A program made the position numbers and the translations under genes. DNA of 64,000 nucleotides. Origin: Bacteriovorax sp. Seq25_V. Lineage in GTDB: Bacteria > Bdellovibrionota > Bacteriovoracia > Bacteriovoracales > Bacteriovoracaceae. The DNA lies in NCBI RefSeq assembly GCF_000447795.1, contig NZ_AUNI01000020.1, positions 124,001 to 188,000 of the forward strand, read 5' to 3'. Numbering within the stretch: position 1 is the stretch's first letter; every line of letters starts with the position of its first letter. Positions 43,567 to 53,667 of this stretch are shown piece by piece. A model generated the notes under the pieces. That model was not told where the DNA came from, did no database searches, and was given only the letters and a program-made list of their open reading frames with translations.

Positions 43567-44148
43567 TTAAATTGATCTTATATAGTCAATTATTTTCTTT
43601 ATTTCTGTTTTAGTTTCTTCTTTGACTACCATCGCACTTTCCTGGTCTGTGAAGTATTGCATTGATCGGATATTTGCAAAGATTCTCTCTAGCGGATTAG
43701 AGACGTTGTGCTCGATTTCGTTTGTACTAATCTTCGATTCTATTGTTTCTGTAAGTGTTGTATCGAGAATTTTTTCTTTCTTTTCTGTGATATCACTTTG
43801 AATCCCAATAAAATATCGAACACCTAATAGCTCATGCTCAATCGGTATTAGCATTAATCTATTCCAAAATGGTGTACCATCTTTCTTATAGTTAATGAGA
43901 TCATACCAACAGCATATACCCTTTGATATAGAGTTCTTAAGAGACTTTGTAACCTCTTGATCACTTCCTGGTCCTTGTAAGAAACGACAGTTTCGATTTA
44001 TTGACTCAGCTGCCGTATATCCGGTAATTTCTGTGAAATAACTATTTATGTAAACGAGTGGAGAATCTTCTTTTTCTAGATCGACGATGGTAAAGCACTC
44101 ATCAAACTCATTTCCACATTGTGTAAGAACATCAAGAATTGATTTCAT
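43567..44148 (-). CDS. LOV blue-light sensor fused to a DHp-like histidine segment, no ATPase domain
   Basis: This is a 193-residue protein. Residues 15-122 form a LOV-type PAS domain with the photoactive motif NRNCRFLQG (Cys54) and the FMN-contacting NYKKDGTPFWN (Asn86, Asn96) and Gln117 in FIGIQSDI. In LOV proteins this Cys bonds to FMN under blue light. The remaining part contains E-H147-N-V-S-N-P-L (146-153), the H-box pattern of histidine-kinase DHp domains, then a second helix ending at residue 193. No CA (ATPase) domain follows. It might be a light-controlled dimeric phosphotransfer or kinase-modulating protein. The start overlaps the permease stop by 1 bp. Confidence 0.8.
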   Translation of the reverse strand: MKSILDVLTQCGNEFDECFTIVDLEKEDSPLVYINSYFTEITGYTAAESINRNCRFLQGPGSDQEVTKSLKNSISKGICCWYDLINYKKDGTPFWNRLMLIPIEHELLGVRYFIGIQSDITEKKEKILDTTLTETIESKISTNEIEHNVSNPLERIFANIRSMQYFTDQESAMVVKEETKTEIKKIIDYIRSI

Positions 44149-46322
44149 TATTTATTAATTCCTTTTCCACTTGGGTGGATTGAGATGACGGAACAAGTTG
44201 CTTGATCAATTATCTGATCCTCGACACTTGAAAAAATATCATGCCATCTATAATTCTTCTCACTACCAATGATAAGTAGGTCAAATTCAGCACTGTTTTG
44301 TACAATAGTAGAGACAGAGTTTTTGCCAGTCAAAATAATAATACTTTTTCTGACTCGAACGTCATTTGTACGAATTTCTAGCTCATGCTCAATTGATTGG
44401 CAACGCTCAATCGCCTCATTTTTATTAACAAAGTACGCAAAAGCTATTTCTGCTTTATTTGTTACTGCAAGGGCCTCTGCTGTTGAAATAATGATTTCAT
44501 CATTATGGTCTAGATTAAGCACGACGAGTATCTTTCTAATATAACGAACACCCTTATCCTTGAAGATAACAAGATGGCATTCGAGATGGGCCTTAAGCCA
44601 AGTGATTGGAGAGTGAAGGGTGATAGTTCCTCGACTTTTTCCGCTCCATTCCATGAAGAGCCACTTTGAGTGCATTCGCTGAGAGAGTTCAAAAATTGTC
44701 TTTGAGATGTCGTGAGTGACAACGGGATCAAAAGTAAGAGGTTTTCCTTTTTCAATTGCCATCGCAATGACACGTCGGCGAAGAGATTTAAGTTCAGGAG
44801 GCTCTTCAATGAAATCACTTAAGTCCGATTGTTCAGGAGCTTCAGTAAGATGAGCGACTTCAATTAGGTCATCATTTTCTGATAGTGCAACACCCATTTC
44901 AACAAGCATTTCTGGAGATCGTTCTTTCCCTAGAAGAGTTATTACAATTTGGGCATCACGATTAAAAGTTGCAGACTCCATTTTATTTATCTCATCATCT
45001 CGTTGTTTGGTTAGATCTTTTCTCTTTCCATGAATTCCAATAACACCCTTTCTATCTACCCTTTTCCTAGCATAGGAAAAATAGATTATGAGACCAGGTA
45101 TCGAAATTCCGAGTAGTCCAACAATTGCGACACTTCCCATTTTTAGGAGAAGAAAGCTTGTGAGTGTTATTCCTATCATCTGAGTGAATGGATAGAGAAT
45201 ACTTTTATATGTCGGCCTATACCAGTGAACGCGAGTTTCTCTTAGTATGATAACTGCAATATTCTCAAAAAGATAAATAGCAAGAATGAAAGCAGAAGCT
45301 AATTTGGCAATTTTCGTAATATCGATGAATGAAATTATAAAGAGAATAATAATTCCAGAGCTAATAATACTCACAATAGGAGTTTTGAAATTTATGTGTA
45401 GCTTTCCAAAGCTCTTTGGAAGTAATCCATCTCTACTCATGGCAAATGGGAAACGAGATGCTGCCAGTAGACCTGCATTAGCCATTGAGGTCATTGTGAT
45501 AATTGCAATAACTGAGATAGCTATTCCTATGTAGTCACCTGCATATGCTTTGGTCATTGTGTATATAGGCCTAAGGTTTCCTGATAACTTTGATAGTTCG
45601 ACATATTTAGATAGTGCAAATGTTGTTGTACAGTAAACAATCGTGACAATAAGTAGAGATATTAAAATTCCACGAGGAAGATTCTTTTCTGGTTTTTTTA
45701 TTTCTTCTGCTATAGCTGCAACTTTGGTTACCCCCGCAAAAGAAACAAAGACAAGACCAGTACTTTTGATTAAACCTTCTATACCATTTTGTAGAAATGC
45801 TGTATCACCTGAAACTTCCAGTGGGTTTAGAATCACTAGGGTATCAAGTAAGACTAAACTACTAATGGCCGTGATGACGATAAAGATTAAAAAATTACTT
45901 ATTTTTCCCACACCAAAAATATTTATAAAGGTTATCGCGATAGCGAGCACTAGTGCTACTTCTTTAATATTAACGTTACTTAGAATGTTGAGATATGCTC
46001 CAAAGCCCATGAGGGCAAATGCTGACTTGAGCAAAAGAGATATCCAAAGACCTAGGCCTGCAATTGTTCCTGCCATCGGGCCAAATGTTCTATCAAGATA
46101 AATATATGTACCACCACTTGATGGCATTGCTGTGGCAAGTTCTGATTTTGAAATAGCGGCCGGTAGGACACAAATTGCTGCTAGTAAATAGGAGAGCCAT
46201 ACACTTTCACCAGTGATGGAAAAAGCGAGACCTGGAAGAACGAAGATTCCAGAGCCAAGCATAGAGCTTATGCAAATTGCGATGACAGAGCTTAGTCCTA
46301 AGCTTCGTTCTAATTTTTTCAT
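44148..46322 (-). CDS. APC-family amino-acid permease with two C-terminal USP domains
   Basis: This is a 724-residue protein. Residues 1-410 or so form an APC permease of 12 helices, starting with the family signature SVIAICISSMLGSGIFVLPG (helix 1) and with a PSSGGTYIYLDRTFGP loop. Residues 445-720 resemble two universal stress protein (USP)-like segments: IVITLLGKERSPEM and, after a linker, ILVVLNLDHNDE, then a DLLIIGSEKNYRW nucleotide-site-like segment. It transports amino acids or amines across the inner membrane, and the USP domains may sense ATP. It is in the same operon as the LOV gene and after the REC proteins. The substrate is unknown. Confidence 0.88.
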   Translation of the reverse strand: MKKLERSLGLSSVIAICISSMLGSGIFVLPGLAFSITGESVWLSYLLAAICVLPAAISKSELATAMPSSGGTYIYLDRTFGPMAGTIAGLGLWISLLLKSAFALMGFGAYLNILSNVNIKEVALVLAIAITFINIFGVGKISNFLIFIVITAISSLVLLDTLVILNPLEVSGDTAFLQNGIEGLIKSTGLVFVSFAGVTKVAAIAEEIKKPEKNLPRGILISLLIVTIVYCTTTFALSKYVELSKLSGNLRPIYTMTKAYAGDYIGIAISVIAIITMTSMANAGLLAASRFPFAMSRDGLLPKSFGKLHINFKTPIVSIISSGIIILFIISFIDITKIAKLASAFILAIYLFENIAVIILRETRVHWYRPTYKSILYPFTQMIGITLTSFLLLKMGSVAIVGLLGISIPGLIIYFSYARKRVDRKGVIGIHGKRKDLTKQRDDEINKMESATFNRDAQIVITLLGKERSPEMLVEMGVALSENDDLIEVAHLTEAPEQSDLSDFIEEPPELKSLRRRVIAMAIEKGKPLTFDPVVTHDISKTIFELSQRMHSKWLFMEWSGKSRGTITLHSPITWLKAHLECHLVIFKDKGVRYIRKILVVLNLDHNDEIIISTAEALAVTNKAEIAFAYFVNKNEAIERCQSIEHELEIRTNDVRVRKSIIILTGKNSVSTIVQNSAEFDLLIIGSEKNYRWHDIFSSVEDQIIDQATCSVISIHPSGKGINK

Positions 46323-46360
46323 GCAAGCGTATCGGAAGAAAAATCAATTAATTTAGATAC

Positions 46361-47047
46361 TTATGTTATTGGAGGGGATTCGATGAGTATCTTTCTAATC
46401 GCAGGGAAAAGAGCTGCATGTTCTTGCTCGTCAAGTTCAATTTTAAATATATACCCACCGTGCTCTCGATCGAGTGTTACTTCTTTGATAATAAAGTTAT
46501 GACCGGCCAAGAAGCCATTGTTGATTTCTATGTATGTGCCTTTTGCGATATAGTTCTTAGAAAGAACACGGATATATTCCTCTGTAATAGAGTGAATAGT
46601 TAATGGTAGTTCAAAGAAACACTCAAGATCTCCTGTAGGAATTGCAAAGAATGGGAAGGCATTCTGTTCATTGAATCTTTCTAAGTAGAGATCAACTTTA
46701 CTCATCAGAATTTTATTATCTAGCGGTTTTTGAATATAGTCATTTGCACCACACTCAAGAGCAAGTTGAATATCTTCATCACTATCTCTTCTGGACATAA
46801 TAATGATAATAATTTGGTTGCCTATCTTTCTTCTCATCATTTCGATGATTTTAAATCCTACTCCGTTAAAATCTCCTATGTTTAGATCTACTAGACAGAG
46901 GTGTGGCTTGAAAGATACAATTTTTTTGAAAAATTCTTCGAGGGAAGTAGCTGTCTCAATAGCATATGAGTTTTTCTTTAAAATAACTTTTAGATAGTTG
47001 TTGATGTCAGCATCATCATCAATAGTAAGAATTCTTCTTTCGTTCAC
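46361..47047 (-). CDS. response regulator: REC plus beta-rich, PilZ-like C-terminal domain
   Basis: This is a 228-residue protein. The REC domain (residues 4-125) has Asp10-12 (IDDD), phosphoacceptor Asp54 (LVDLNIGDFNG), Ser85 and Lys107 (QKPL). Residues 135-225 are beta-rich and have an ITEEYIRVLS...GTYIEI pattern that resembles a PilZ barrel, but the usual RxxxR c-di-GMP motif is missing. There is no DNA-binding domain. It neighbours a second REC protein of the same layout, 1 bp away, in a six-gene operon with the LOV sensor and HPt genes. The output is unknown. Confidence 0.8.
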   Translation of the reverse strand: MNERRILTIDDDADINNYLKVILKKNSYAIETATSLEEFFKKIVSFKPHLCLVDLNIGDFNGVGFKIIEMMRRKIGNQIIIIIMSRRDSDEDIQLALECGANDYIQKPLDNKILMSKVDLYLERFNEQNAFPFFAIPTGDLECFFELPLTIHSITEEYIRVLSKNYIAKGTYIEINNGFLAGHNFIIKEVTLDREHGGYIFKIELDEQEHAALFPAIRKILIESPPIT

Positions 47048-47048
47048 A

Positions 47049-47729
47049 CTAAGCCTTCTTCGTTTTTAATGACCTAATACCTTTTAGATCTTTTTCTTTT
47101 AGACCTACAATACTGACATCAGTGTCATAGATTCCTGGTTGTACATCACGACTAGGTCGGTGAATAACAAACTGGGCACGATCAATTTCAATTTTCTTTA
47201 GAAATTTACTGCTTATATTGAGCTTCATTTTTTCACTAAATTTAATTTTTGATCTCAATACCAGTTCAACTTCGCTAATTTTTGTCACTTGCCCCATACA
47301 TTTTGCCGTTAGCCTACTTGTGTTTTGGTCTACGATTGTAGCTTCCAGGAGATCTAGGTCTGGCATGATTTTTTTCATTGTGGTCATAAGTATATTATTA
47401 TTGATAGGCTTTATTAGATAACCATTTGTTCCTATACGCTGAGACAGCTCTATCGCTTTTTTACTTGATAGGGAACTTATCATTATAACTTTTATGCGAC
47501 GGTGTGGATCAATTTTACGTACTTGTGAAATAAAATTGAAGCCATTTTCATTCTCGAGATTAATATCCAATAGAATAAGATGTGGGTAAATTGCAGTAAG
47601 CTTCTTCTCAGCTGAAAGTGAATCTTCTGCTTCATGTACTTCATGACCCATTCCTTCGAGCAACTTTCGAAGATATACTCTCATGTCCGGATCATCATCA
47701 ATTATTAAAATACTCTTACTCTTTCTCAT
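47049..47729 (-). CDS. response regulator: REC plus PilZ-like C-terminal domain
   Basis: This is a 226-residue protein. The REC domain has Asp11-13 (IIDDD), phosphoacceptor Asp55 (LLDINLENENG) and Lys in IKPI. The C-terminal 95 residues or so carry CMGQVTKISEVELVLRS, then a KMKLNISSKFLKKI stretch, a beta-barrel-like pattern similar to the neighbouring protein's C-terminus. No canonical c-di-GMP or DNA-binding residues are seen. Its start overlaps the stop of the HPt gene by 4 bp, so co-translation with the HPt partner is likely. Confidence 0.8.
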   Translation of the reverse strand: MRKSKSILIIDDDPDMRVYLRKLLEGMGHEVHEAEDSLSAEKKLTAIYPHLILLDINLENENGFNFISQVRKIDPHRRIKVIMISSLSSKKAIELSQRIGTNGYLIKPINNNILMTTMKKIMPDLDLLEATIVDQNTSRLTAKCMGQVTKISEVELVLRSKIKFSEKMKLNISSKFLKKIEIDRAQFVIHRPSRDVQPGIYDTDVSIVGLKEKDLKGIRSLKTKKA

Positions 47730-48019
47730 ATGAATTTGACTTGAATATCCTGCATAAATGCTTCAAAATTTTTGATAAGATCACCAACTTTTTCAAAATT
47801 TCCATTTTTACATTCAAGTTCGATATTCTTAGCAATTTTTCCTAGTTCATCAAAACCATAACCACCTGAACTACCAGATACACGATGTCCAATTTTTTCT
47901 ATCGTTGAGTAGTCTTTAACCGCAAAGGCGTCATTTAGTAGTCCGATATCCTTGCGTCTGTTCTCGAGGAAGCTGGGTAAGATATCTTTAAGTTCTTCAT
48001 CAACTTCAATGATTGGCAT
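47726..48019 (-). CDS. stand-alone HPt phosphotransfer protein
   Basis: This is a 97-residue, all-helical protein with the HPt motif IGHRVSGSSGGYGFDEL (phosphoacceptor His45). It moves phosphate between receiver domains in a multistep phosphorelay. Overlap with the next REC gene (4 bp) and a 3-bp gap to the REC-HD gene make it the centre of this operon. Being a separate protein, it can serve several of the receivers encoded on both strands here. Confidence 0.88.
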   Translation of the reverse strand: MPIIEVDEELKDILPSFLENRRKDIGLLNDAFAVKDYSTIEKIGHRVSGSSGGYGFDELGKIAKNIELECKNGNFEKVGDLIKNFEAFMQDIQVKFI

Positions 48020-48022
48020 TTT

Positions 48023-49351
48023 TTACTCCTCATCTGTAATTAGAAATTTATCTTTGATTGCTTTTAAAATTTTATAGAAATTCTTGTGCGCAAATTTATA
48101 ATTTAATATTGTAAAAATCTCTCTTAGTTTTTCAGGTTTAAATTCATAATGATACAGCTCATTAGAAAAAGCATGAGCCACTAGAAAGGTCAAAGTGGTG
48201 ACTGAATTATTTGTATTCATCTGACTTTCATTATAAGGATAATTCTCATCAAAACTATGTTGAATTGTTAAAATCTTTTGAATTTCATCACTTATATCTG
48301 TAAAATTCTTATTATTCTCAAGAAGTTTAACATGTTTTCTTATTATCTGTTGTTCATCATATGTTAAGTCTTTGATCTTTTCTGGCCTTATGTCATGAAT
48401 GTAATTTAAATCGGCCCTTTCAATACCTAGGTCATGAATTAGTGATGCCATTGCAAGTCTTTCATTTGCTTGCTTTGTTAGCCCAACTTCACCGGAAATA
48501 TGTGAGCAAATGCATGTTATCAAAAATGTGTGATCGTAAGAATAATCATTTGATTTTAGCAGAGATTCGATCAGTCCTTTAAAGCTAGATTTGTGGGCCT
48601 GCTCAATTGCCTGTAAAGCAAGTTTAGAACTTTCATCGATAGAGTATTGTGAAATTCCTAGTTGTTTCACCAGGGAGGCTAGGTAGAGGTGCTGTTTCTT
48701 TGCATTTTCTAAGAAATCACTTTCACTATTAGTGTTTTTTAAAAAATTTGTTGATGTAAATTCAACGAGAAAGTCTTCGTAATCTTCTGCTAATATATAG
48801 AAATACTTAATTTCTTTTTGAATGTAGCGTTGAATAAAGTCCATTTCATATTCATGTTCTTTATTAATGATTTTAACGTACTTTTCCTTATTTATTTCGA
48901 TGAAGATTGAACATTTTGTGTAGTTGAATCTCGTAAAGTTATATATTGGAACTCTTCGATATTTACTTTGTTCTCCATCTCCGTCGTAGTTCAAAATTTT
49001 ATTAAGCATTGCCGTGATGTCTTTTGGTCGGGCAGGTTTTTGAAGTGAAGATAGTCTCTGATCATTTGAATCTGTTAGGAAATCTACTTCTTCAAGGTTT
49101 CTACTTGTGAAAAGTAAAAACTGCGTTTCGCTATTATGAGTTCTTAGATGTATATAAACGTCTTCGCCAGTACCAAATGGAGGCATTTCATAATCACAAA
49201 TAATTAAATCGAAACTATAACGATCTAGTTCTGCGATAGCCGTATTTGGGCACGATGCCCTGACTATCGTGGCACTTTCAAACGCATTTTCAACTATTAT
49301 ACATATAAGCTCGAGAATTGCGTTATCATCATCGACGATTAATATATTCAT
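48023..49351 (-). CDS. response regulator with a degenerate HD-GYP domain
   Basis: This is a 442-residue protein. The REC domain has Asp7-9 and phosphoacceptor Asp53 (ICDYEMPPFG). A middle region (about 135-225) contains the KYVKI ... YIQKEIKYFYI pattern common in such regulators. The C-terminal HD domain keeps a first His (YDHT), ASLIHDLG and a later His (IRKHVKLLEN), but the HHExxDGxGYP motif is reduced to QHSFDENYPY. The c-di-GMP phosphodiesterase activity of HD-GYP proteins is therefore uncertain; it may bind rather than cleave. It is first in the minus-strand operon. Confidence 0.85.
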   Translation of the reverse strand: MNILIVDDDNAILELICIIVENAFESATIVRASCPNTAIAELDRYSFDLIICDYEMPPFGTGEDVYIHLRTHNSETQFLLFTSRNLEEVDFLTDSNDQRLSSLQKPARPKDITAMLNKILNYDGDGEQSKYRRVPIYNFTRFNYTKCSIFIEINKEKYVKIINKEHEYEMDFIQRYIQKEIKYFYILAEDYEDFLVEFTSTNFLKNTNSESDFLENAKKQHLYLASLVKQLGISQYSIDESSKLALQAIEQAHKSSFKGLIESLLKSNDYSYDHTFLITCICSHISGEVGLTKQANERLAMASLIHDLGIERADLNYIHDIRPEKIKDLTYDEQQIIRKHVKLLENNKNFTDISDEIQKILTIQHSFDENYPYNESQMNTNNSVTTLTFLVAHAFSNELYHYEFKPEKLREIFTILNYKFAHKNFYKILKAIKDKFLITDEE

Positions 49352-49481
49352 TAATTTTACCTCTTATTTATTATCGGCAGGTAAAGATAATTGCTTGAGA
49401 GTACGATAAGGAATATATGCTAAATAAAAAGTTAATAAAATCACACATTTTAGGAGCATACATCTTGTATACTGAAATTAT

Positions 49482-50966
49482 ATGAAGATACTGTACTTTG
49501 GAATTGATAACACATTTATAAAATCTCTTGATCTAGAGCTTTTAGATTCTGGCTTCTTGCTATACTCTGTTTCAAATCTTGAAGAATTGGAAAAAGAGAT
49601 GAATAGCTGCGCTCTTGTTTTAATTGATTATGACCATGAAAAGGAAATAATTGAGAAGGCTGTTGAGAAGATCAAGGACATTGAAATGAAGCGCGCGGGA
49701 AAGAATATTCCCCTTATTTATATCAGTAATAAAGATAATTTTGATGAGAAACTACGTGCATTCCATATGGGAGCAGATGAATATGTTGATAAGTATGAAT
49801 TAAAGTCATTGAAGTTAAAAATCAACTCTTTTTTAAGACCAGATCTTATTTGGAAAGGTCTTAATACCTTACTCGTTGAAGATGATAGAATCTCTGCTAA
49901 GTTTATTTCTCACGTTCTTACTTCAAAAGGTGCAAATGTAACTCTATTTTTGGACTCTGTTGAGGCTTTTGAATACTTAAAAGCAGGAAATGTCGTTGAT
50001 CTTATACTAACTGACCATATGATGCCAAACCTCACGGGGGTTTCATTTGTTAAGAAAATTCGAAAAGAGTTAGGGATCCGTGCAGTTCCAATTGTTTTCA
50101 TTAGTAGCGAACAGGATAAAGTTGAAATTTTGGAGTTTTATAAGGCCGGAGGTAATGACTATATTGGCAAGCCACTTATTAAAGAAGAGCTCTATGTCAA
50201 AGTTAATCAACTTTTAGAAAATACGATCAAGACATCAATCCTTAAGAAACAAATTGAAGAACTAGAAAAGTTAAGTCGTTTAAAAGATCAGTTCTTAGCC
50301 GTTTGTTCCCATGACTTAAGAACTCCTTTGAATACTATCTTAGGACTTTCCAATATTATTGGTGAGGAAGAGGATATAAAAGATATTAAAGAATATGGAG
50401 ATCAAATTGAAAAATCAGCTCGAGAACTTCTTGAAATGGTTAATGAGCTTCTTGATTTCAGTGATATTGAACTTAAAAAATCTACGGTCAAACTAACTTC
50501 TGTAAATGTTGTTGAAATCTTAAAGAACGCACTTCGTAATATCAGCTCAATCAATACAAAGCACCTTAGGTTATCGATCGTGTCAGATTTTGATGAAGTT
50601 TTAATTAATGGTAATAAAGGAATGCTTCAACGTGCTTTTTCAAATGTTATGAGTAATTCGTATAAATTTACCGCAGAAGGTGGTGAAATAAAGTGCACTG
50701 TTTTAAAAGATAATGATTTTGTAAATGTTATTGTTTCGGATAGTGGAATAGGAATGTCATCAGAAGAATTATCACATCTTTTTGATACTGTTCCTACGAC
50801 TGGAAGAGAAGGCCTAAAGGGCGAGAAGAGTACTGGATTAGGTACCAAAATTGTTAAAAATATCATGGAAAAGCATGGTGCTGAAACGAATGTAACTTCT
50901 ATTGAAGGAGTTGGAACAACTTTTACATTTCGATTTCAGATGTCTTCAAATGAGAAAGGAACATAA
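49482..50966 (+). CDS. hybrid histidine kinase: pseudo-REC, REC, HisKA, ATPase
   Basis: This is a 494-residue soluble protein. Residues 1-115 are a REC-like domain with no acidic pair at the N-terminus, so probably a pseudo-receiver. Residues 127-245 are a canonical REC (Glu133-Asp135, phosphoacceptor Asp178, Lys230). The kinase core follows with His277 (VCSHDLRTP), an N box (NVMSNSYKFT), G1 (VSDSGIGM) and G2 (KSTGLGTKIV). Having receivers before the kinase suggests that phosphorylation of the receivers controls its activity. It is cytoplasmic, without membrane helices. It opens the plus-strand operon, with the minus-strand operon diverging 130 bp away. Confidence 0.93.
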   Translation: MKILYFGIDNTFIKSLDLELLDSGFLLYSVSNLEELEKEMNSCALVLIDYDHEKEIIEKAVEKIKDIEMKRAGKNIPLIYISNKDNFDEKLRAFHMGADEYVDKYELKSLKLKINSFLRPDLIWKGLNTLLVEDDRISAKFISHVLTSKGANVTLFLDSVEAFEYLKAGNVVDLILTDHMMPNLTGVSFVKKIRKELGIRAVPIVFISSEQDKVEILEFYKAGGNDYIGKPLIKEELYVKVNQLLENTIKTSILKKQIEELEKLSRLKDQFLAVCSHDLRTPLNTILGLSNIIGEEEDIKDIKEYGDQIEKSARELLEMVNELLDFSDIELKKSTVKLTSVNVVEILKNALRNISSINTKHLRLSIVSDFDEVLINGNKGMLQRAFSNVMSNSYKFTAEGGEIKCTVLKDNDFVNVIVSDSGIGMSSEELSHLFDTVPTTGREGLKGEKSTGLGTKIVKNIMEKHGAETNVTSIEGVGTTFTFRFQMSSNEKGT

Positions 50967-51322
50967 TGAGAGTATTATTTGTTGACGACAGTATAGATAA
51001 TCTAACTTTGTATAAATTATATTTTAAAAAAATGACAGAAATTGAGATTGATTACTTTGCTGATCCTCGAGAAGGTTTAACCCATGCTCTAAACGATAAG
51101 TATGATCTTATTTTTCTAGATATACAGATGCCTGAGATCGATGGGTTTGAGTTTAAGGCAAAACTTGATGAATCTAAAATAGTAGCAACAATATGCGCTC
51201 TAACTGGCTTTACTGATGAGAGCACACTCGAAAAAATTGAGTCACACAATTTTTCTGAGATTATAAAAAAGCCAATTTTAAAAAAAGACTTAGTTGAATT
51301 AGTAGAAAAGTATAAAAAATAG
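50966..51322 (+). CDS. single-domain response regulator (REC)
   Basis: This is a 118-residue receiver with Asp7-Asp8, phosphoacceptor Asp52 (IFLDIQMPEIDG), Thr in ALTGF and Lys in IKKPIL. There is no output domain. The start overlaps the kinase stop by one base (TAATG), so it is produced together with the kinase and may be its direct phosphoryl acceptor or an inhibitor or shuttle. Confidence 0.93.
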   Translation: MRVLFVDDSIDNLTLYKLYFKKMTEIEIDYFADPREGLTHALNDKYDLIFLDIQMPEIDGFEFKAKLDESKIVATICALTGFTDESTLEKIESHNFSEIIKKPILKKDLVELVEKYKK

Positions 51323-51327
51323 GATAC

Positions 51328-52503
51328 ATGATGAAGAGTAATAATTTTCAAGATGCATTAAGTTTAGCTAGAGAGGAGTTTATTGAATCTCTTCCTAGCG
51401 AGATTGAAGCTCTAAAGAATGTCATCGTCAAAAATAAGGATATTAAAAAGTCAGATATTTCTGAAAAAGATATATCTAGCTTTATTCGAAGTATTCATAA
51501 CATTAAATCGGTAGCCGGGTCCTATGGACTAGACTTTATTGTGAGTGCTTCACGCAATATTCTTGATCATACTTCTTATTATTTAAATCTTGAGAAGGAT
51601 TCAATTGTAGATTTTGAACTGTCTCTTAAAATTTTTGACTTAATGGAAGATTACATCAAAAGTCTTCAAAAATCGTCTCGATCAAATTATTCTGTTGAAC
51701 TTGATAATCTTTTGACGGAAAAGCTTACGAAGAAGAGAGTTTTGCTAGTAGAAAAGGATGAGAGACTTATTGAACACTTTAAAAACATCTTCAATAAAAA
51801 AGATATAACGTATTCAATTGTATCCTCAGGGATTGAGGCCTTTAGTCGCCTACTTGATGAACGATTTGATTTACTGATTACAGATCTTCATGTTGGTAAA
51901 CTTGATGGGCCAAGTCTAATTGCTTCTACACGTGTATCAAGCAGTGTTAATCAATCGATTAAAACTTTGATGTTAAGTGTTTCATATTTTGATCTTCTTC
52001 CATCAATATCGATGCCTGATTTCTTTATTTCAAAGAATGAGAATATTCTCTCCTCTTTTGAAAAAGCGATTGATAAATTCTTACGGCCTGATAGCGTAGA
52101 AAATACAGAGGTTGTTAAAATTTTGAGTTTAGATGATGATAAGAATATTCATGACCTTTTAAATATCTCTTTTCGTTCTCATAATATTGAATACGACTTC
52201 GCAATGGATGGAGATTCGTTCATACAAAAATTTACGAGCAATAAGCCTGATATTGTCCTTCTGGATCTCATTTTAGAGAAGGAGAGTGGGGTTGATGTTA
52301 TAAGGCGACTTAAGAAGAAAGTTACTTCTTTTGACGTTCCTGTAATTGTTCTTACGAGTCTCGAAGGGCAACTGAGAAGTGAGTTAGTTTCAGAAATTCC
52401 ATTTATTGTAGGTAGCTTATCTAAACCTTTTACTCCGAAAGCAATGGCGAAGGAAGTTCTGACTCTTTTCAAACAGAATAAAAAAGGTCTAAGTGCTAGC
52501 TAA
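51328..52503 (+). CDS. HPt-REC-REC phosphorelay protein
   Basis: This is a 391-residue protein. The N-terminal HPt has His57 (SIHNIKSVAGSYGLD). REC1 (about 136-250) has Asp186 (LLITDLHVGKLDG) but only a partly conserved acidic pocket (VEKDE). REC2 (about 264-385) is complete, with SLDDDK, Asp313 (LLDLILEKESG) and Lys366. The order HPt, then two receivers, with no kinase or output domain is uncommon. It could receive phosphate from the hybrid kinase and distribute it. ATG 51328 and 51331 are both in frame. The 3' end overlaps the convergent REC gene by 8 bp. Confidence 0.9.
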   Translation: MMKSNNFQDALSLAREEFIESLPSEIEALKNVIVKNKDIKKSDISEKDISSFIRSIHNIKSVAGSYGLDFIVSASRNILDHTSYYLNLEKDSIVDFELSLKIFDLMEDYIKSLQKSSRSNYSVELDNLLTEKLTKKRVLLVEKDERLIEHFKNIFNKKDITYSIVSSGIEAFSRLLDERFDLLITDLHVGKLDGPSLIASTRVSSSVNQSIKTLMLSVSYFDLLPSISMPDFFISKNENILSSFEKAIDKFLRPDSVENTEVVKILSLDDDKNIHDLLNISFRSHNIEYDFAMDGDSFIQKFTSNKPDIVLLDLILEKESGVDVIRRLKKKVTSFDVPVIVLTSLEGQLRSELVSEIPFIVGSLSKPFTPKAMAKEVLTLFKQNKKGLSAS

Positions 52504-52885
52504 GTAGCTGTGATATTTTTTCTTTGAGAGCAGTAAAGTCAACAGGCTTAGTGATATAGTCATCGGCCCCAAGGTCTTTGGCTAATGACTGTCTTTCTGT
52601 GTCAGTATAAGCTGAGGACATGAAGACAGGAAGATCTGGCATCAGTGATTTTACTTCCCTTAATAATTCAAACCCGGAGATACCTGGCATATTAATATCA
52701 GAAATAATGAGTTTGAAATCATTTGCCGCTTCTGACTTGAGTTGAGCAATCGCTTCTTCTCCTGAAATACAAAACACAATTTTGAATTGGTTCGCTTGCA
52801 CTTCTTTTTTAAATACTTTCTCGTATAGAAATTGCACCGATTTCTCATCATCAACAATTAATATTTTCTTTTCTAGGCTATTCAT
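52496..52885 (-). CDS. single-domain response regulator (REC)
   Basis: This is a 129-residue receiver with Asp12-Asp13, phosphoacceptor Asp63 (IISDINMPGISG), a Ser in VFMSSAY and Lys in ITKPVD. There is no output domain. It is transcribed alone toward the plus-strand phosphorelay operon, and its upstream region holds a palindrome and a tandem repeat that look like operators (52903-52970), so its supply may be separately regulated. Confidence 0.93.
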   Translation of the reverse strand: MNSLEKKILIVDDEKSVQFLYEKVFKKEVQANQFKIVFCISGEEAIAQLKSEAANDFKLIISDINMPGISGFELLREVKSLMPDLPVFMSSAYTDTERQSLAKDLGADDYITKPVDFTALKEKISQLLS

Positions 52886-53106: not shown

Positions 53107-53667
53107 TTATTTCTTTTTTGCTGGCGACTTTGGAGTAACCTCTTTCTTAGTAGAAATTTTCTTTTTTGGAGTTACTGGAGCCTTCTTAGCTGTCGCTTTT
53201 TTTGCTGGAGCTTTCTTAGCTGTCGCTTTTTTTGCAGGAGCTTTTTTTGCAACTACTTTTTTTGCTGTTGTTTTTTTAGCAGGAGCTTTTTTCTTCGTAG
53301 CAGTTGTTTTCTTTTTTAAAGGATTTACTTTCTTTGCTTTTGAAATTTCTTTCTTAACGTGACCCTCAAGAGTTTTCTGAAGCTTGTTTAGTTCTTTTAC
53401 TTGTTCATCAAGAAATTTCTTCGCTTTCTTTACTTCTTCTTGAATTGTTTTATCAATTAATTTTTCAACAGCTTCCTTTTCTTTTTGAATTCTGTTAACT
53501 ACTACTTTTAGATCTTTTTCTACAACATTTTTAACTTCTTGCTCAGCGTTCTTTACAAGGTCTTTTACTGTCTTTTGAACATCTTGAAGAGAGTTCTTTT
53601 GAATAACTTTTTCTACGTGTCCTTTAACTTCTTTAAATGAATTTAAAACTTTCTCTAAATTTTTCAT
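53107..53667 (-). CDS. histone-H1-like Lys/Ala/Pro-rich protein with coiled-coil N-terminus
   Basis: This is a 186-residue protein. Residues 1-110 form long amphipathic, highly charged helices (coiled-coil or phasin-like). Residues 111-186 are almost only Lys, Ala, Pro and Thr, with decapeptide repeats such as KKAPAKKATA (141-150 and 151-160), like the tails of eukaryotic histone H1 and bacterial AlgP/Hc1-like proteins. It probably binds DNA or RNA non-specifically and compacts the nucleoid, or links DNA to another structure through its helical part. It is well expressed, judging by AGGAGA before the ATG. Confidence 0.8.
   Translation of the reverse strand: MKNLEKVLNSFKEVKGHVEKVIQKNSLQDVQKTVKDLVKNAEQEVKNVVEKDLKVVVNRIQKEKEAVEKLIDKTIQEEVKKAKKFLDEQVKELNKLQKTLEGHVKKEISKAKKVNPLKKKTTATKKKAPAKKTTAKKVVAKKAPAKKATAKKAPAKKATAKKAPVTPKKKISTKKEVTPKSPAKKK
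53177..53250. repeat. 30-bp direct repeats in the histone-like tail
   Basis: A near-perfect 30-bp unit (for example 53191-53220 and 53221-53250, with a partial copy before) encodes the decapeptide repeat of the basic tail. Such DNA can gain or lose units by slippage and so vary the tail length between strains. Confidence 0.75.

Follow-up and report, generated by a model that had tools for sequence, protein, structure and literature searches.

A conserved, receiver-rich gene island of Bacteriovorax that may encode an unpacked multistep phosphorelay

Given that ten neighboring genes of Bacteriovorax sp. Seq25_V encode nine receiver domains, two HPt sites and a single kinase, we wondered whether these parts belong to one signaling pathway, and what such a pathway would act on. 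The genes occupy positions 43567 to 52885 of the stretch of 64,000 nucleotides analysed here (the window), in contig C20 of the 3.45-Mb genome of a marine bacterium whose named relatives are Bacteriovorax and the predatory Halobacteriovorax. Open reading frames and Pfam place all ten at the coordinates originally assigned to them and bear out the inventory drawn up from the bare sequence, including its statement that DNA-binding domains are missing: the Pfam scan of the island proteins found none. The island is flanked by TyrS on one side and by a phasin-like gene and NadE on the other, and is arranged as two divergent gene strings plus one receiver gene, REClone (52496–52885, minus strand), that faces the plus string. 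The minus string runs RRHD, HPt, RRb, RRa, permease and LOV, with neighboring genes that overlap by 4 bases at one extreme and lie 38 bases apart at the other, while the plus string runs HK, REC1 and HPt-REC-REC. Both promoters are presumed to lie in the intergenic region between the strings (49352–49481), where we detected no sequence-level conservation among relatives and no excess of sigma-70-like promoter matches over shuffled sequence (38 versus 36.6). The flanking phasin-like gene (53107–53667) encodes a Lys/Ala-rich, phasin- or histone-H1-like protein that matches no Pfam family convincingly and always adjoins NadE, even where the island is missing.

In terms of receivers, this is the densest stretch of the genome: eight of the 72 receivers above the Pfam cut-off fall within its 9.3 kb, as opposed to five in the next-best stretch of that length (Poisson P ~4e-11 against a null of random scatter, though two-component genes normally cluster). 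The ninth island receiver is the pseudo-receiver at the N terminus of the kinase, in which G-I stands in place of the acidic pair. The original prediction rightly held a pseudo-receiver to be present, but the count of receivers with a damaged acidic pocket is two, the other being the first receiver of the HPt-REC-REC protein, with E-K in the window and E-N, E-K or E-S in orthologues. Two further dense receiver/HPt clusters lie in the same genome (G000), one at C14:29000–35600, which holds a paralogue of HPt-REC-REC (27% identity), and one at C9:78900–88700.

The reading that we favor, and consider moderately likely, is that the island encodes an “unpacked” multistep relay. The kinase HK (49482–50966, plus strand) would autophosphorylate and transfer its phosphate to REC1 (50966–51322, plus strand), the single-domain receiver encoded next to it; REC1, as the predicted intermediate, would pass it to the stand-alone HPt (47726–48019, minus strand; 97 amino acids), and the HPt would in turn serve the paired response regulators RRb (47049–47729, minus strand) and RRa (46361–47047, minus strand), the predicted terminal outputs. 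The residues required of such a path are in place. HK matches HisKA (E 5e-16) and HATPase (E 9e-21) in Pfam, and its H277, N388/N392, G422/G424 and G452/G454 are invariant in nine orthologues, as is H45 of the stand-alone HPt, which lies in the motif IGH(K/R)V(S/A)GS(S/A)GGYGF of a protein that exceeds the Pfam cut-off for Hpt (E 2e-7). D7 D8, D52 and K102 of REC1 and the phospho-sites of RRa and RRb are likewise invariant in the aligned orthologues. Pfam found neither a PAS nor any other sensor domain in HK, in which the pseudo-receiver and then an intact receiver, REC2, precede HisKA, so that the kinase is probably governed by other phospho-signals or by partner proteins. This intact REC2 could also compete with REC1 for the intermediate role.

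What the relay would act on depends on RRa and RRb, each of which couples a receiver to a barrel domain. These C-terminal domains are homologous to one another (hhalign probability 94%), and the model of RRb (pLDDT 83.5) shows a barrel of six strands and, at the C terminus, a helix; in fold searches with RRb, the Foldseek and VIA-align lists were filled by receiver matches, so that they bear on the receiver and not on the barrel. For neither window domain did Pfam return a PilZ match at E values up to 1, and a PDB sequence search with profiles of the C-terminal domains gave nothing meaningful. PilZ is the only family matched by several homologous C-terminal domains, weakly and in 4 of 24 (best E 6e-4). 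PilZ domains that bind c-di-GMP carry the motifs RxxxR and D/NxSxxG. In our reading of the sequences, the window's RRa and RRb carry neither motif, and the domain is therefore best called PilZ-like. The barrels show no DNA-binding family and probably work via protein contact, and since neither of the two final switch proteins looks like a DNA binder, the relay would probably act on other proteins and not on genes.

To see how much of this arrangement is conserved, we compared 12 islands, the window included, from three genera: g1 (G000, G073, G082, G089 and G093), g11 (G010 and G056) and g3 (G002, G049, G068, G080 and G087). All of them occupy the same chromosomal site, beside the phasin-like gene, NadE and TrmFO. 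Every island has HK, REC1, HPt, RRb and RRa side by side; these five genes are thus kept together across the three genera and not scattered in relatives. The block is real and conserved, and it consists of this core and variable extras. The proposal of a multistep phosphorelay with non-DNA-binding outputs accordingly stands as far as gene content and the shared core are concerned, the route of the phosphate being read from sequence. Among the extras, REClone occurs in nine islands and RRHD in seven. The HPt-REC-REC protein (51328–52503, plus strand; a weak Pfam HPt and two receivers, the first of them atypical) occurs in six and is limited at this site to the window's genus and one other genome, G056, whose copy has lost both the HPt His and the Asp of the first receiver. 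We infer that the relay has optional side branches in RRHD, HPt-REC-REC and REClone, which may serve as further outputs, buffers or sinks. The g3 islands carry additional receiver proteins, among them ankyrin-linked ones in both islands examined with Pfam (G080 and G087); receiver-ankyrin-repeat proteins are found inserted near RRa in g3 islands at L077 (4607–6538) and L079 (6476–7675). A point against the unpacked relay comes from another genome of the same genus, G012, where the site between the phasin-like gene and TyrS (L152, G012:C6, 7669–11636) holds nothing beyond an HPt-like gene of 89 amino acids, the permease and a kinase of 484 amino acids that is not HK, and every receiver gene is missing.

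With the RRb and RRa C-terminal domains as queries, a phylum-wide search revealed how the same parts are arranged elsewhere. Distant Bdellovibrionota carry regulators of this type singly or as RRb-RRa pairs, and most of them adjoin a long hybrid kinase, in which receiver and HPt are usually included. In the Bdellovibrio-like loci L138 to L142, one regulator directly follows a long kinase, which in L138, the one examined with Pfam, reads PAS-HisKA-HATPase-REC-HPt; kinases similar to it accompany an RRb-RRa pair at L130 and L133, and L131 combines a hybrid kinase, a separate HPt gene and an RRb-RRa pair. For the receivers at the C termini of these kinases, the REC1 profile gives the best score in nearly all cases, and the HPt domains detected in them match the profile of the island HPt better than that of HPt-REC-REC. 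Intermediate and terminal receivers have been reported to be separable by sequence (PMC9981736), and REC1 carries the D-I-(Q/E)-M-P and ALTA/ALTG-type motifs that are common in the hybrid-kinase receivers of our set and that RRa and RRb lack. In a tree of 86 receivers, built on 122 columns and hence on a thin alignment for that many rows, REC1 groups with the hybrid-kinase receivers at an SH-aLRT of 87, and both RRb (96) and RRa (82) join their namesakes from distant genomes. AU tests disfavor trees that unite REC1 with REClone (p 0.005) or with REC2 of the kinase (p 0.028), and do not separate a position of REC1 inside the hybrid group from one as its sister (p 0.236). On account of these likenesses in profile, tree and motif, together with the HPt matches, we interpret the island as a multistep relay in unpacked form, and island and hybrid-kinase loci as putatively the same relay in unfused and fused form, related via fission or fusion. 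The Bdellovibrio-like loci share with the island the type of output regulator, the order of parts (kinase, receiver, HPt) and the adjacency of the genes. They differ in that the kinase itself carries receiver and HPt, with a PAS sensor in front in L138, whereas the island encodes kinase, REC1 and HPt separately, has N-terminal receivers and no recognised sensor on its kinase, and provides two output regulators.

However, the local kinase need not be the one that feeds the HPt. A contiguous HPt-RRb-RRa trio occurs in at least eight further genera (with the order RRb-RRa-HPt in G025), and outside the three island-bearing genera it mostly has no adjoining kinase, so that its kinase could be remote. 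This makes it doubtful that the circuit is self-contained, as had been proposed. The HPt and RRb/RRa might instead be a shared hub served by one or more remote hybrid kinases, with the local kinase and REC1 as one input among others or acting directly on other receivers. Sharing of HPts is plausible from the genome-wide matches (36 HisKA and 75 receiver against 13 HPt), and the FMSSAY motif of REClone resembles the FATGUY motif, which is reported for MrrA, SdrG and other receiver-only intermediaries (PMC9981736). Nevertheless, the trio is accompanied by kinase and REC1 in all 12 islands of three genera, and we regard the shared hub as the main, if rather unlikely, alternative to the local path through REC1. 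The trio also qualifies the claim that the system has no transcription factor. This is correct locally, but in seven loci of related genera examined with Pfam the gene adjoining the trio encodes an OmpR-type regulator (REC plus Trans_reg_C), near which RRHD-like proteins lie as well; the missing DNA-binding output thus appears to be a trait of the window's clade and not of the module. Searches for an orthologue of this regulator in the island-bearing genomes gave generic family matches only. In G034, more HPt-like genes lie directly beside the trio (L117, 8334–12326).

The original prediction had proposed another circuit, in which light (LOV), c-di-GMP (the PilZ-like and HD domains) and nucleotides (USP) control transport or motility. 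Its light sensor has an intact LOV motif: the LOV protein (43567–44148, minus strand; 193 amino acids with a helical C terminus, Pfam LOV/PAS) contains NRNCRFLQ with the photoactive cysteine, NYKKDG, FWN and GIQSD, and thereby the cysteine and the flavin-contacting N/N/Q, and phototropins and blue-light receptors head its PDB matches, with E values down to 8e-26. LOV and permease also lie in the gene string of the regulators, at junctions between overlap and 38 bases, and the output domain is weakly related to PilZ. Yet LOV is found in only two of the 12 islands, the window and G082 (the G093 contig stops before its expected place), and its start overlaps the gene of the permease, not that of a regulator; it is too rare to be a general input, and light is not supported as an integral signal. 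In Bacteriovorax sp. DB6_IX, a 280-amino-acid protein of no known family takes the place of the window's LOV between permease and TyrS (L070, 587–1429), and our literature search found no paper that pairs Halobacteriovorax with a LOV domain. The permease (44148–46322, minus strand) is an APC-family protein with a USP-like C terminus, as predicted, in which Pfam brought out one weak USP stretch (E 6e-4, below its cut-off) rather than two USP domains. It is present in 11 islands, while G056 keeps the relay without it. In G044 and G079, the permease lies beside NadE and the phasin-like gene with no relay genes between them, the HPt-RRb-RRa trio being located elsewhere, which argues that it is an independent neighbor and speaks against transport as the output. 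LOV and permease were therefore set aside as intrinsic parts on their presence and absence across islands, and are treated as neighbors rather than established parts of the relay.

The proposed c-di-GMP input fares no better, with the PilZ binding motifs absent from RRa and RRb and an HD domain, missing from five islands, that lacks GYP. The latter belongs to RRHD (48023–49351, minus strand), a receiver followed by a Bd1817-like domain pair in which Pfam sees HD only very weakly (E 0.13). For the last 310 residues, the C-terminal two thirds, the five best Foldseek matches are all Bd1817 (PDB 3TM8/3TMD), an HD-GYP protein of unconventional type from Bdellovibrio bacteriovorus, the best of them with E 4.4e-7, a TM-score by target length of 0.62 and a sequence identity of ~13%, and profile A11 matches 3TM8 at positions 133–410 (E 3e-8). 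Bd1817 is thus the best fold match of this part, the N-terminal receiver being RRHD's. Published work describes Bd1817 as a diiron HD-GYP protein that is inactive (PMC4159591). In our own mapping of that study's metal-ligand list onto RRHD, His274, His306-Asp307, His340 and His365 are invariant in seven orthologues, while in the window the Lys after HD is Ile and His393 takes the place of the last metal Asp. With most metal ligands kept but GYP and this Lys lost, RRHD most likely retains a metal site but has no phosphodiesterase activity on c-di-GMP. REC-HD proteins like RRHD belong to a large set of paralogues, matched in at least 88 of the 95 family genomes, with at least 18 in the richest. 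Altogether, we consider a circuit that integrates light and c-di-GMP improbable. That the island is a loose accumulation of two-component genes by duplication, with no single pathway, is very improbable: the homology of the RRa and RRb C-terminal domains, the genome-wide abundance of RRHD-like proteins and the coming and going of accessory receivers, ankyrin-linked ones included, would fit it, but none of the 12 islands lacks any gene of the five-gene core, and across the phylum the RRb-RRa pair is kept beside hybrid kinases.

Returning to the unpacked relay, a known counterpart in plan is the sporulation phosphorelay Kin-Spo0F-Spo0B-Spo0A, where an unfused kinase, a single-domain intermediate receiver, a separate phosphotransferase and a terminal regulator follow one another, as predicted for the island. 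Spo0B does not belong to the HPt family and Spo0A binds DNA, whereas the island has all its parts in one cluster and two outputs without a DNA-binding domain. In the CckA-ChpT-CtrA/CpdR relay of Caulobacter, the likeness is that a single phosphotransferase serves at least two terminal receivers; unlike in the island, the kinase CckA is a hybrid, ChpT is not of the HPt family and CtrA binds DNA. CpdR carries the FATGUY motif (PMC9981736), to which that of REClone is similar.

Our literature search found no paper describing the HPt-RRb-RRa trio or the RRb-RRa pair, and a recent comparative study of the phylum leaves the response regulators unmentioned (PMC11656739), although the trio is widespread in the family and the pair occurs across the phylum. 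Fused and separate forms of what appears to be the same relay in related genomes offer a natural series on how tethering or freeing a receiver and an HPt affects signal flow. It is tempting, if decidedly speculative, to suppose that this predatory lineage took a hybrid-kinase relay apart and uncoupled it from its transcription factor, and that one HPt now feeds several non-transcriptional receivers, which would control the machinery of attack or growth through protein contacts alone. The genes of the island are, in any case, concrete candidates for control of the predatory cycle.
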